Positions 3,460-51,382 of a DNA stretch of 64,000 nucleotides are shown one piece after another. This DNA comes from Lachnospiraceae bacterium (GTDB taxonomy: Bacteria > Bacillota > Clostridia > Lachnospirales > Lachnospiraceae). The stretch lies in assembly GCA_017619635.1 (NCBI GenBank), contig JAFZRZ010000016.1, forward strand, positions 1 to 64,000, in the 5' to 3' direction. The notes beneath the pieces were generated by a model, which had not been told where the DNA came from, did no database searches, and worked only from the letters and a program-made list of their open reading frames with translations. The position numbers and the translations under genes were made by a program. Every line of letters begins with the position of its first letter. Position 1 is the stretch's first letter.

Positions 3460-3539
3460 TGAGAAGGTGAAAAGTGGGGATTTGTTTGCATTTTGCAGAT
3501 ACAAGATATTGTAGGATGTCGAAATAAGAGGGAATAATT

Positions 3540-6500
3540 TTGGATAAGTACGAGTACAAATTAAGATCCGATGAGATCAAATCACTTATTAAACAGAGAG
3601 AGTTTCAGCAAGCTGTTGAGATTGCGGATACTATCGACTGGACCAGAATAAGGAGCGTAACAACGCTTTGTACCATAAGCGATCTTTATAAGATCAACCG
3701 CAGATACAAGGATGCAAAGATCCTTCTTGAGCAGGCTTATGAGAGATATCCCAACGGAAGGATGATCGTATATTCACTTTGTGAGTTATGCATCAAAATG
3801 GAGGAGATAGTACAGGCTATAGAGTATTACAAGCAGTTTGTGCAGATGGCTCCCACGGATAACGGTAAATTTGTACTTCAGTATAAGATATACGAAGCGC
3901 AGGATGTAAGCCTTGAAGAGCGTATCGCTGTTCTTGAAGAGCTTAAAAAGCGTGATTATAAAGAAAAATGGGGCTATGAGTTGGCTTATCTTTATCACAG
4001 GATAGGTCTTACGACCAAGTGCATAGAGGAATGTGACGAGCTTATCGTATGGTTCAGGGAAGGTCCTTATGTTAAGAAGGCAATGGAGCTTAAGATGCTT
4101 CATACCCAGCTTACGGAGAGTCAGCTGAGCCTGTATGAGAGTATGCTCCCGCCAAAGGAAAGAGAAGCTTTTGTAGCTCAGAATACTGCTGAGATGGAAG
4201 CTGCCAAGACTGAGGATGATATCCAAGTTAAGACCATGGACATGAGTAAGTACAACACACTCAATCTTCAGAAGGAACTCGCTGAGTCCATGAAGGATGT
4301 GCTGGTTGCCGATAACGGATTTGCATCTTTGGTTCCTGATGCCAACGGAGAAGCTGTACAGGGTACATATATTCCCGATGATTTCTCACTGGATAAACGT
4401 GTGGGAACGACAACAGAGAAGATATCCAGAACTCTTGTCAATGAAGAACCCATAGAAGGAGATCAGTCTCCTCTGCCGTCCATTTCTTCAGGTGCATCCA
4501 CACAGATGCTTCATGATACTGGAGAGATGGAAGAACTCTTCTTTGAAGAGAACAAAACAGAGAGTACCCCTGTAAAAGAAGAGGATTGGGACAATCTGGA
4601 TGAAGCGGGTGATGAGATATCTGAAAATGTTGCAACCGATACCTCTCAGTTCCCTGCATACGATCCCGTAAAGGATCTTGAACTCACCATGATGTATAAT
4701 CCCCAGGGAATATCTGATAAGATAGGTGATGAAATAAAGGCTGATCCGGGTATTGATGAGGAAGCGGTTGAGGAAGCAGAGATTCCGAAAGTTGGAACTA
4801 ACACCGCAGAACTTTTCAATATAGATGATACGGTTGAGATAGTTGAACCCATAGAAGCCACAAAGGTATTTAACAGAGATGAGCTTCAGGCGGTTGCCAA
4901 GGCATACAATACATCTCTTCAGGCTGACAAGTATGATTTTGATTTCAGTGATACAAAGAAACCTCAGCCAAAGACAATAGAAGAATATGTATCTGAGGAT
5001 ATAGGAGACCGCAATACCGAAGAGCTGCTTGCTCTTATAGACCAGAGGGTAAAAGAAGCTGTTGAGCGTGCATTTGATGTGAACAGACCGATGACTGCTG
5101 CATATCAGGCACAGAGCTATCCTTATGTTTACGAGGAACCTCCGAAAGAGATGGAGAACGTGCTCTCTCAGGATGCTGATGGACAGATAAGTCTTGTTGT
5201 TCCCGAAGTAGCCCCTGTTGAAAAGCAGATAACCGGCCAGCTGAGTCTGAACGATATCTTAAATGAATGGGAAAATACAAAGAAACAGAACCAGGTGAAA
5301 TTCGAACAGAATCTTGCAACAAAGGTTCTTGAAGAGACGGGAAGTCTGTTCACTCCTACAGAATCCATCCAGATGGACGGTATCCTTGAAAAGCTTGAGA
5401 GAAATGAGATCCCGGATGATGAAGATATAGATACAGAAGCCGAGTACGAGAAGTATCTTGCCGAACTCATGGCAGAGGAAGGTTCTCCTGAAAACAATGA
5501 GATAGAAGAGAAACTCAGTGAAGAGACTACTGTTGATGAAGAAGGATATGAGCCTGTTCTTTCTTCTGATGAGGAGACTGAAGAGGACGGAGTAGAGGAA
5601 CTCACTGACATAATCGAGCCTTCAGAAGCAGATGAAACTGAACAGGAAGATGAGCCGACAGAGGAAGTAAAAGAAGTAATAGAGGAAACAGAAAAAGAAT
5701 CTGAGGAATCTGATGATACAGCAGAAGTATCACAGTCAGAAGAAACAGAAGAAGTGATCGAAGAAAAGGCTGATGAGCCTGATGAAACTCAGGAAAAAGA
5801 AGCTGAACCAAAGAACGAGGAGACTCCAAAAGAAGAATCTGTAAAGAAGCCTGTAAGCACTCCCAAAAAGGAATCAGCACCTGAGAAGGATTATAATGAC
5901 AGCTCCTCTAGAAGCATGAACGAGGACGAGCTGGCGCTGTTTGGACAGTTCGCACAGACCAAGAGTGCAAGACAGAATCTGTTACACTCATTAGATAAAA
6001 TAAGCTTAGCAGCGTATACAGGAAATGTATTTGTAACGGGAGAAACAACAGACGAATCTGTCGATCTTGCGAAGAATGTAATCCGCTATGTTAAGAATAC
6101 GGATGCGAACTTTACCGGCAAGATCGCAAAAGTATCTGGTGAGGCGCTGAATAACAAGATGGTCAGTGTCATGGTGGAGAAGCTCGCAAACGGTGGTCTT
6201 ATAATAGAAAAGGCCAGCGGTATGAGTGCCGAAACTACAAAGAATCTATTAAGGGCGCTTAACCAGGAGAATACGGGAATAGTTGTAGCTCTTCAGGATA
6301 CCAAAAAGAATATGCACAAGATGATGGAATACTTCGATGGTATGAAGCAGATCATCAATGTACATATTGAGGTTGAAGAGTTAAGTGACGATGCGCTTGT
6401 AGCATATGGAAAGAAATATGCAGAGCATCTTGAGTATTCTATCGATGATATGGGTATACTTGCTTTACATACTCGTATTGATGAGTTGCAGACCAGTGAT

Positions 6501-48011: not shown

Positions 48012-49814
48012 TTGAACAAAAAGAAAAACGGGATAAATATGTACGCCATAGTATTTATCCTCATAATGTTGTTTGTGGCGATATATTCTTATACAAAAGA
48101 CAGCAATACGGGATATACAAAAACCGAGTTGTATGATGACATAAATAACGGAAGGATTGTTGGGGCACTGATAAAACCTTCATCAGCAGTGCCGAATGGT
48201 AAGATTTCCATAGTAAGAAGCGATGCAAGTCGTGATACCGTTGTGGTTACGGATATCAATGAAGTTGTAAGTATGTTCGATGAGAAAGGCATATTCTATA
48301 CCGTAAATGAGGTTGAAGAAGGCAATGTCCTCATGAACTATGTTGTGCCGATAGTCACCATAGTGGCAGTTCTTGTCATGCTCATAATGATAATGGGTGC
48401 CCAAAGCGGTGGCGGAGCCGGCTCAAAGATGATGAACTTTGGCAAGAGCCGTGCCAAGATGAGTAATGACACCAAAAAGAAACTTGCTGATGTTGCAGGT
48501 CTTCAGGAAGAAAAAGAAGACCTCGAAGAGATAATAGATTTCCTGAAAGCACCCGAAAAGTATGTTAAGATGGGGGCGCGTATTCCAAAAGGTGTCCTTC
48601 TTGAGGGACCTCCCGGAACAGGTAAGACTTTACTTGCCAAGGCTATGGCAGGAGAGGCCAATGTGCCGTTTTTCAGTATATCGGGATCTGATTTTGTGGA
48701 GATGTTTGTAGGTGTCGGTGCTTCCAGAGTAAGAGACCTTTTTGCGGATGCAAAGAAAAATGCACCGTGTATAGTTTTTATAGATGAGATAGACGCTGTT
48801 GCAAGACGAAGAGGAACCGGTATGGGTGGTGGCCACGATGAACGTGAGCAGACGCTCAACCAGTTGCTTGTTGAAATGGACGGATTTGAGGATAATTCGG
48901 GCATCATTGTTGTTGCAGCTACAAACAGAGTAGATATACTTGATCCTGCGATTCTCCGTCCCGGAAGATTTGACAGAAAGATATCTGTGAGCAGACCAGA
49001 TGTAAAAGGCAGGGAGGATATCTTAAAGATCCATGCAAAAGACAAGCCGGTTGGAAGTGATGTTGATCTTAAGCAGATAGCCCAGACTTCAGCCGGATTT
49101 ACCGGAGCCGATCTTGAGAATCTATTGAATGAGGCGGCTATAAAGGCTGCAAAGGGTAATAAAGCATACATTGAACAGAAAGATGTTCAGAGTGCATTTA
49201 TAAAAGTTGGTATAGGTACAGAAAAGAGAAGCAGACTTGTTACTGAAAGAGACAAGAAGATAACGGCTTATCATGAAGCCGGTCATGCGATATTATTCCA
49301 CGTTCTTCCCGATGTAGGTCCTGTATATACCGTATCGATCATACCTACCGGTCAGGGTGCGGCCGGATATACCATGCCGCTTCCTGAGAAGGATGAGATG
49401 TTCCATACCAAGGGACAGATGCTTCAGGAGATAATGGTCTCACTGGGTGGCAGAATTGCGGAAGAGATCATATTTGACGATATAACAACAGGTGCATCCA
49501 GTGATATTCAGACTGCGACAAAAGAAGCACGTAAGATGGTCACAAAGTACGGAATGAGTGACAATATCGGTGTTATATGTTACGAACATGAGGATGATGA
49601 GGTATTCATAGGACGTGACCTTGCGCATACGAAGAGTTATAGCGAATACATAACTGGCGAGATAGATAAAGAAGTTAAGAAGATAATAGATGAGTGTTAC
49701 GCAAAGGCTAAGGAGATCATCCTTGAACATAAGGATGTGCTTGAAAAGAGTGCACAGCTTCTTATGGAAAAAGAAAAGATCACAAGAGAAGAGTTCGAAG
49801 CCTTCTTTGTATAA
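48012..49814 (+). CDS. ftsH: ATP-dependent zinc metalloprotease FtsH
   Basis: The 600-residue membrane AAA+ protease degrades membrane and regulatory proteins. It has a membrane helix at about 10-28, an outside segment, a second helix near 112-130, AAA+ domain with Walker A GPPGTGKT (199-206), FIDEIDA, SRH ATNR and RPGRFDRK, and the zinc motif His421-Glu422-x-x-His425 (HEAGH). The start is TTG 48012 with AGGAAAGAG 4 bases upstream. Length is normal; it lacks a long Gln/Asn tail. Confidence 0.95.
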
Positions 49815-49864
49815 GTTGCACAAAAAAGCCATATACACTTTGTGATTTTTGTTAATCCTTTGTA

Positions 49865-49893
49865 TTGTTCACAAGTGGGACCTCTGATATTAT
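49865..49893 (+). promoter_or_regulatory. promoter of the candidate small RNA
   Basis: TTGTTC (49865-49870), 17 bases, TATTAT (49888-49893) with TGA in front. It lies in the 239-base gap after ftsH, with no open reading frame of note between it and the terminator at 49961-49990. Confidence 0.65.
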
Positions 49894-49899
49894 ACTACT

Positions 49900-49987
49900 T
49901 GTAACCCCCAATACATTTTGTAGTTTTTTGCTATACCCCATAAGAGAAATACCTTCTCTGAAAAGACAGCTTTACCCGCTGTCTTTT
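49900..49987 (+). ncRNA. candidate stand-alone small RNA with C-rich single-stranded motifs
   Basis: The predicted transcript of about 88 bases runs from the start 7 bases after the -10 to the terminator. Its body contains AACCCCCAAT (49912-49921) and ATACCCCATA (49933-49942), both predicted unpaired, a short hairpin AGAGAA/TTCTCT (49943-49959), then the terminator hairpin whose loop is TTTACCC. Three C-rich unpaired motifs could bind the G-rich ribosome sites of mRNAs, as C-rich motifs of RsaE/RoxS do. It could instead be an untranslated leader truncated before rsmF, which has its own promoter at 50005. Confidence 0.5.
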
Positions 49988-49990
49988 TTT
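49961..49990 (+). terminator. intrinsic terminator of the small RNA
   Basis: AAAAGACAGC (49961-49970) pairs with GCTGTCTTTT (49978-49987) around TTTACCC, running into seven T. Confidence 0.92.
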
Positions 49991-50004
49991 CTGTCCATTT
50001 TTGG

Positions 50005-50013
50005 TGTTATAAT
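50005..50013 (+). promoter_or_regulatory. extended -10 promoter of the rRNA methylase gene
   Basis: TGTTATAAT with a perfect -10 hexamer at 50008-50013. The expected -35 place (49985-49990) is the T run of the preceding terminator. Predicted start near 50020, 34 bases before the ATG. Confidence 0.6.
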
Positions 50014-50053
50014 CATTCACAGATAAATCATATGATCTTTTTGAGGTGATCAA

Positions 50054-51382
50054 ATGCTTCCTGAAGCGTATATAAACAGAATGCGAACCCAGCTTAATGA
50101 TGAGTTTGACGCATTTATAAATTCATATGAGGAAAAACCAAAACAGGCATTACGTTTGAATACATTAAAAAACGGTGATGTTTTCAAAGTATGTGATAAG
50201 GCATTTCATCTAAACAGCGTGGAGTGGGCTTTAAACGGGTATTATTATGATGATGATGATCAACCGGGAAAGCATCCATACCATGAGGCGGGAATGTATT
50301 ATATTCAGGAACCCAGTGCGATGGCTCCTGTAATGCAGCTTGATGTTAAACCCGGAGATGTGGTTTTGGATCTGTGTGCAGCGCCGGGAGGAAAAAGTTC
50401 GCAGATTGCAGGATTTCTTAAGGGGGAAGGTTTGCTTCTATGTAATGAATATATATCATCCAGAGCCCAGATACTGTCTGAGAATATTGAACGAATGGGG
50501 ATCAGGAATGCATGTGTCACAAATGAATCTCCGGACAGGCTTGAACAGTTCTTTCCGGCTTTTTTTGATAAGATACTAGTGGATGCTCCATGTTCCGGAG
50601 AGGGGATGTTTAGAAAGAATCCTTTGGCATGCGACGAATGGAGTGAGGAAAATGTCAGAATGTGTGCAGAAAGGCAATCTTGGATCCTTGATTGTGCTGC
50701 AACTATGCTCCTCCCCGGCGGACGGATGGTTTATTCAACCTGCACATTTTCCAAAGAGGAAGATGAGGATCAGATTGAGGCCTTTTTAGAAAGACACAAA
50801 GAATTCAAACTGGAAAAACAAGAAAAGCTGATGCCCCACAGAATTAAGGGTGAGGGCCATTTTGTTGCTGTTCTTATTAAGGATGGGGAGAATATTCAAA
50901 TAAGAAGAGGAGTATCGAATGATACTTCATCGAAAGAAAATAAGAATCTTAATAACATGATTTCATTATGGAGATCATTTGCAAAAGAGACACTTACGGA
51001 AAATGCGATAGATCGATTAACTGAAGGAAAGAGATACATTGCGTTTGGAGATAACCTGTATCTTGTCATGTCAGATCTTCCTCAGTTAAAGGGAGTAAAA
51101 GTGGTACGACCGGGATTACAGCTTGGGAGTATAAAAAAAGACAGATTTGAACCCGCTCATGCTCTTGCACTTGCGCTATCATGCGAAGAGGTGATGCGTT
51201 CACATTCTCTTTCCTGTGATGACAGGCTCTCTTCGGCATATCTGGCAGGAGAGACGTTTAGTGCGCAGGGAGAAAAGGGATGGTATCTTATATGCGTGGA
51301 TGGATTCAGCATGGGATGGGGTAAACTTGCGGGTGGAATTATGAAGAATCATTACCCTAAGGGATTACGAAAACACCTGTAG
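50054..51382 (+). CDS. RsmF/RsmB-type rRNA cytosine-C5 methyltransferase
   Basis: The 442-residue enzyme has the NOL1/NOP2/sun methylase core: SAM site DLCAAPGGKSSQIA, catalytic loop DAPCSGEGMFRK and TCTFSKEEDE with the two cysteines, and a preceding YIQEPSAM. A C-terminal RsmF-like domain (about 290-442; LKGVKVVRPGLQLGSIKKDRF, LAGETFS, GWYLICVDGFSMGWGK) marks the RsmF/YebU-type long form, not RsmB. It methylates a cytosine of 16S rRNA in related proteins. GAGGTGA precedes ATG 50054. Confidence 0.9.
   Translation: MLPEAYINRMRTQLNDEFDAFINSYEEKPKQALRLNTLKNGDVFKVCDKAFHLNSVEWALNGYYYDDDDQPGKHPYHEAGMYYIQEPSAMAPVMQLDVKPGDVVLDLCAAPGGKSSQIAGFLKGEGLLLCNEYISSRAQILSENIERMGIRNACVTNESPDRLEQFFPAFFDKILVDAPCSGEGMFRKNPLACDEWSEENVRMCAERQSWILDCAATMLLPGGRMVYSTCTFSKEEDEDQIEAFLERHKEFKLEKQEKLMPHRIKGEGHFVAVLIKDGENIQIRRGVSNDTSSKENKNLNNMISLWRSFAKETLTENAIDRLTEGKRYIAFGDNLYLVMSDLPQLKGVKVVRPGLQLGSIKKDRFEPAHALALALSCEEVMRSHSLSCDDRLSSAYLAGETFSAQGEKGWYLICVDGFSMGWGKLAGGIMKNHYPKGLRKHL

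Follow-up and report, generated by a model that had tools for sequence, protein, structure and literature searches.

A new family of C-rich small RNA genes in the Lachnospirales with a proposed action at Shine-Dalgarno sequences

The intergenic region behind ftsH in a Lachnospiraceae genome contains a gene of about 90 nt for a small RNA that represents a new family, limited in range to the order Lachnospirales within the sampling done. The gene occupies 49901-49990 of the window, the 64,000-nucleotide stretch of contig JAFZRZ010000016.1 that was analysed as a whole; all window features given below lie on the plus strand. We consider it probable, short of firm, that this is a stand-alone, non-coding, C-rich sRNA that acts in trans as an anti-Shine-Dalgarno RNA. 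Lachnospiraceae are a dominant gut family whose members rank with the most common bacteria of the human gut, and the genera that bear the RNA include, among the matches listed, Roseburia, Blautia, Butyrivibrio and Agathobacter. Since the gene is conserved, has a fixed promoter box, falls in no Rfam family and is multicopy in some genomes, it offers an obvious entry to post-transcriptional control in Lachnospiraceae, and existing RNA-seq data could test the RNA immediately.

Layout and conservation of the RNA gene

Two open reading frames flank the gene, ftsH upstream (48012-49814) and, in the window's species, rsmF downstream (50054-51382; trkA or other genes in relatives). The promoter consists of an extended -10 element, TGATATTAT (49885-49893; TATTAT at 49888-49893 with TGA before it), and a -35-like TTGTTC (49865-49870) at a spacing of 17 bases, the latter poorly conserved in the alignment. 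The RNA start, G 49901, is inferred from the -10 element and from where conservation begins. There follow the C-rich motif C1, ACCCCC (49904-49909; 4 to 11 C in relatives, then an invariant AATAC), a weak predicted hairpin TGTAG-TTTTTTG-CTATA (49919-49935) without covariation support, the motif C2, GCTATACCCCATAAG (49930-49944, with ACCCC at 49935-49939), the motif C3, AAATACCTTCTC (49947-49958), and an intrinsic terminator, AAAAGACAGC-TTTACCC-GCTGTC-T7 (49961-49990), which has a covarying helix with the loop TTTACCC and is kept in short-form members. Transcription itself is inferred, no transcript having been seen. Neither Rfam nor tRNA or tmRNA searches of the window gave a match, and comparison of the intergenic segment 49815-50053 with Rfam down to E 10 returned unrelated scores only.

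A previous reading of the letters alone, here called the sequence-only reading, had proposed a promoter-to-terminator unit at 49865-49990. Both elements were confirmed in the sequence, but taken alone the promoter is no better than chance: a simple scan returned 3 promoter-like sites versus 5.7 expected in shuffles, chose a different register (TTCACA/TATACT), and did not have the RNA's terminator in its list. It is conservation that lifts the RNA unit above chance. A 239-base intergenic query matched 18 of 20 genomes of the same genus; with a 146-base query, 220 of 299 genomes in the family showed similar DNA (219 of 298 by genus). The RNA's own genome is included in the 18 of 20 and in the 220 of 299. 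In its own genome the RNA locus is the sole strong match to the query.

Alignment of 38 transcripts, from which long-form and near-identical sequences were excluded, left 33 invariant columns, including CCCCAATAC and all 12 columns of AAATACCTTCTC, the most conserved element. The conserved segments of the RNA are a 5′ GUAA(A)C4-11AAUACAU, GCUAYACCCCAUAAG and, strictest of all, AAAUACCUUCUC. Three C motifs, unpaired or in loops, had been predicted from the letters; the fold agrees, and the ACCCCC and ACCCC motifs are conserved, but the ACCC of the terminator loop varies among relatives, and C3 had been overlooked.

A covariance model of the RNA (R1) was built and used for family, class and order searches. 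It matched 116 of 150 family genomes of at least 95% completeness; since 34 had no match, the RNA is not essential to the family. In the order Lachnospirales 43 of 116 genomes were matched, with weaker members in other families, most of which, where read, carried AAATACCTTCTC or a near-identical sequence plus a CCCC segment. At class level only 13 of 291 genomes were matched, 11 of them from the RNA's own order; the other two (G502, G651) lack C3 and a promoter and were discarded as chance. The sequence-only reading had asked for such a covariance search in Lachnospiraceae and would have counted itself refuted if relatives did not conserve the promoter, the C motifs and the terminator; with both tests run, its claim survives.

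Hosts among the matches listed are Roseburia hominis, Blautia, Butyrivibrio, Kineothrix, Lachnoclostridium, Enterocloster and Eubacterium. In Agathobacter rectalis the RNA follows tilS-hpt-ftsH on a 252-kb replicon (L404, NZ_CP143948.1), which is called a plasmid and yet bears these usually chromosomal housekeeping genes; the gene table of that plasmid omits RNA genes, so that a missing annotation there is uninformative. A mobile-element origin was considered and set aside: the patterns used yielded one IMG/VR contig, no phage record and this one plasmid. The IMG/VR contig (L232, 45,515 bases) has a high-scoring RNA copy at 148-239 with a promoter box near the contig edge, adjoining a helicase-like open frame; the copy could be phage-borne, at an integration site or in host flank.

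The predicted fold of 49900-49991 (-23.2 kcal/mol, z -6.35; none of 200 shuffles as good) owes its stability mostly to the terminator; it leaves the C-rich stretches unpaired or places them in loops. Likewise, RNAalifold and pair counts gave support for the terminator only. Changes on both sides were found at 8 of the 11 pairs of its helix, which also held all 39 double-change cells of the whole tested structure (10.8 in shuffles); the central TAG/CTA hairpin showed no covariation, and one of its outer pairs was broken in 19 of 37 sequences. As covariation is confined to the terminator, the C-rich body owes its conservation to sequence and not to fold. The window's species has the short form of the RNA, as do five of its relatives (L009-L013). 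At 11 loci of the same genus (L014-L021, L023-L025) we found a long form, in which the first hairpin has lost its T-run and a segment, TTAACCCC-GGGGGTATTTC, comes behind it that is predicted to pair with C3 in a long stem; in most of these loci a second terminator lies downstream, and C1 and C2 remain free in the predicted fold.

A promoter box nearly private to the gene

We compiled 186 distinct promoter-plus-RNA sequences by a strict pattern with 75 bases upstream, dropping all others. In 166 of them the motif TGNTANNNT preceded the G of GTAA by 5-9 bases. Further upstream, 93 carried a box of the TTTGTGCACACTT type (box A), starting at -42 or -41 in 91 cases; another 66 had TTTGTGAA-like boxes, and 27 had neither type. 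With one letter relaxed, the direct repeat TTTGT-N4-TTTGT was present in 72. The window's species has the second of these promoter types, with a conserved element, TTTGTGATTTTTGTTAATCC (49839-49858), in which TTTGT is repeated at a distance of 9 bp. By alignment and by the box variants this element is the counterpart of the TTTGTGAAGTTTGTGCACACTT box in other genera.

The exact 13-mer TTTGTGCACACTT occurred 11 times in 12 genomes, compared with 0 for its backwards control. Ten of these occurrences lay upstream of the RNA, two of them at previously unknown copies, and the remaining one lay at another site that no copy of the RNA follows. The small RNA gene thus has this box almost to itself. 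In most relatives it sits at or near the -35 position, which suggests that an activator probably switches the RNA on; such a factor is inferred from this placement. The TTTGTGAA-type repeats resemble the ResD consensus, a lead only, with no binding data behind it.

Independence from neighbouring genes and absence of coding

At most of the family loci inspected, tilS-hpt-ftsH precedes the RNA and is read from the same strand, and most Lachnospiraceae copies lie directly behind ftsH. Flanking sequence was sufficient for 147 copies: the upstream gene shared the strand of the RNA in 131 of them, and an ORF of at least 100 codons overlapped 5. One copy per genome is usual. The maximum was five (G070, and G178, where the fifth is a weak short match), and tandem copies were found in L092, L145 and L248. 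Extra copies adjoin unrelated genes, among them those for a subtilase, PTS EIIC, TrkA, AsnA, an arabinofuranosidase and MatE. In L092, from another family of the order, three tandem copies about 330 bases apart (3471-4241, minus strand) lie upstream of a gene for an FtsH-type protease. Separately, four assemblies (L019, L022, L023, L058) have a break at the RNA gene or close to it, in the way assemblies do at repeats, and extra copies may be under-counted.

The gene can also be missing. Canonical ftsH was present in 19 of 20 family genomes without a model match, and in 18 of these 19 no recognisable trace of the RNA was found within 697 bases after ftsH; the other locus (L390) holds a decayed copy that kept the box, the -10 element and C1 and has lost C2 and C3. 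The RNA unit can therefore be lost and can decay. At the loci without the RNA (L374-L391), the frame after ftsH often looks, as judged by eye, like the start of an amylase-like protein. Some other members of the order have a gene of this kind downstream of the RNA itself.

These data bear on two readings that would tie the RNA to a neighbour. One makes it a leader or attenuator that serves the gene downstream (amylase-like in many genera) by signal-dependent termination. In its favour, that gene shares the strand of the RNA in 123 of 146 copies and is often near, the gap having a median of 130 bases over all copies, and in some families the RNA does precede alpha-amylase or ftsH. However, the downstream gene differs between genera (rsmF, trkA, amylase-like, others) and is convergent in the other 23 copies, also in Agathobacter rectalis, no alternative antiterminator is conserved, and covariation is confined to the terminator. 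Without a fixed downstream gene on the same strand, and with extra copies beside unrelated genes, we rejected the leader as very unlikely. The sequence-only reading had likewise doubted a mere leader, giving rsmF its own promoter after the terminator; an extended -10 element, TGTTATAAT (50005-50013), identical in the closest relative (L009), makes such a promoter probable. That the RNA might be a processed 3′ UTR of the ftsH mRNA with feedback on ftsH is in keeping with its conserved position in Lachnospiraceae, yet a conserved promoter of its own separates it from ftsH, and copies away from ftsH keep that promoter; we hold this to be highly improbable. The RNA gene is a stand-alone unit, independent of its neighbours: the earlier proposal to this effect is upheld by the conservation of the unit, the copies beside unrelated genes, the convergent neighbours and the loss of the unit as a whole.

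Coding was examined on both strands. Among 164 distinct sequences the C-run varies from 4 to 11 letters and the T-run from 4 to 7, and the spacings between anchors cover all nine classes modulo 3. A 53-codon TTG frame spans the RNA region, but relatives do not preserve the reading frames. On this comparison we class the RNA as non-coding, as had been supposed when no credible frame was noticed. Conservation might instead reflect a small protein on the opposite strand, where a good Shine-Dalgarno sequence, GGAGAAGG, precedes ATG GGG in 160 of the 164 sequences. The frame is not kept, however: it ends after 3 to 36 codons, with a different reading after the A-run, its ATG is lost in other families of the order, and promoter and terminator are oriented the other way. 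We rejected this protein and give it virtually no credence; we read the joint presence of ribosome site and ATGGGG otherwise, the RNA body being the complement of an ordinary ribosome site with its start codon.

Proposed action and relation to known sRNAs

Under the trans-acting sRNA reading, the extended -10 promoter, probably with the help of an activator at the upstream box, would transcribe an RNA of about 90 nt that ends at the intrinsic terminator. It would expose three single-stranded segments, C1 (ACCCCCC), C2 (UAYACCCCAU) and C3 (AAAUACCUUCUC), whose most likely partners would be the G-rich Shine-Dalgarno sequences of mRNAs from other loci; such pairing would block ribosome binding in the manner of RsaE/RoxS. 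Pairing and repression are inferred. C3 is complementary to GAGAAGGUAUUU, to Shine-Dalgarno sequences of the GAGAAGG/GAGGAGG kind and, with one G-U pair, to the ordinary Shine-Dalgarno sequence GAGGAGGUAUUU. We distinguished RNA classes A (CUACACCCC) and B (CUAUACCCC). That C3 is locked in a predicted stem in part of its own genus is odd for a seed used everywhere and counts against this reading.

Target prediction at translation starts, as had been advised, gave no enriched or conserved target. The search covered 619 starts from about 28% of the RNA's own genome. Duplex energies favoured long discontinuous pairings and, lacking a null, were not trusted. Exact complements of at least 9 bases were found at 11 of the 619 starts; shuffled RNAs averaged 10.7, and 84 of the 200 reached 11. 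Starts exceeded an internal coding control for GGGGTTA (5 versus 0) and GGGGTATAG (2 versus 0), an excess that may stem from nothing more than the composition of Shine-Dalgarno sequences. The most promising candidate, an aquaporin gene whose Shine-Dalgarno sequence is GGGGTATAG, was dropped because the 17 other homologous sites do not keep this match. The long complements of C2 and C3, GGGGTRTAGCA and GAGAAGGTATT, showed no visible excess over a backwards control in 60 genomes each (columns not summed and neighbouring genes not tabulated), and many GGGGTRTAGCA matches were the RNA gene itself. Pairing with targets may run over stretches too short or too rich in wobble pairs for these tests to register, or the RNA may act on a protein. 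In the latter case it could be a decoy that titrates a protein binding C-rich or unstructured RNA, without pairing to mRNA. The long single-stranded C-rich body, the conserved U-run, the tandem extra copies and the lack of a conserved mRNA target would all suit such a decoy; but conservation extends well past the C-runs (AATACATTATATAG, GCTAYA, AAATACCTTCTC), further than a simple C-binding site needs, and we know of no C-rich-RNA-binding protein in these bacteria that could be its target. A decoy thus seems unlikely to us.

Returning to the anti-Shine-Dalgarno sRNA, one may tentatively go further and imagine an order-wide global riboregulator, the anaerobes' functional counterpart of RoxS/RsaE, driven by an unknown activator at the near-private box (perhaps a ResD-like response regulator) and acting on many mRNAs with G-rich sites, in which the C3-locking 3′ extension found in part of the genus would be a built-in switch. 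Such a regulon is inferred, and we offer it as a doubtful extension only.

No account of a conserved small RNA of this description in Lachnospiraceae was found in the literature searched, including the portions covered of PMC4409812, PMC5171806 and PMC8040213; supplements, most subscription journals and a 2011 Clostridium sRNA survey fall outside this coverage. For the Lachnospiraceae relative C. phytofermentans, non-coding transcripts have been described by start-site mapping from cDNA libraries with a 200-bp size threshold (PMC5171806); as far as the main text of that source goes, none of them is placed after ftsH, a gene absent from that text.

The likeness to RsaE/RoxS drawn in the sequence-only reading holds for layout, in that these RNAs likewise have several unpaired C-rich regions, and fails for homology. 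RsaE (Rfam family RF01820) gave no covariance match at E up to 10 in 49815-50053 or in the loci of nine relatives, and membership of RsaE/RoxS or any other Rfam family was rejected. C-rich (UCCC) multicopy sRNAs, LhrC among them, are also known from Listeria and Staphylococcus. The new RNA shares with the LhrC type its unpaired C-rich motifs and, in some genomes, several copies, some in tandem, but it is usually single-copy and matches no Rfam family. Its conserved motifs differ from those of RsaE/RoxS and, unlike them, it is confined in our sampling to Lachnospirales. According to the part of PMC4409812 consulted, RoxS has several C-rich regions capable of Shine-Dalgarno pairing, an extended -10 promoter and an upstream regulator site; the ResD site of roxS lies at about -65, whereas box A of the new RNA starts at -42 or -41. 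The same part of that source places roxS and rsaE in a shared context of redox-related genes, unlike the tilS-hpt-ftsH neighbourhood of the new RNA (PMC4409812). Collectively, the kind, a C-rich regulatory sRNA, is already known, and the RNA family is new.
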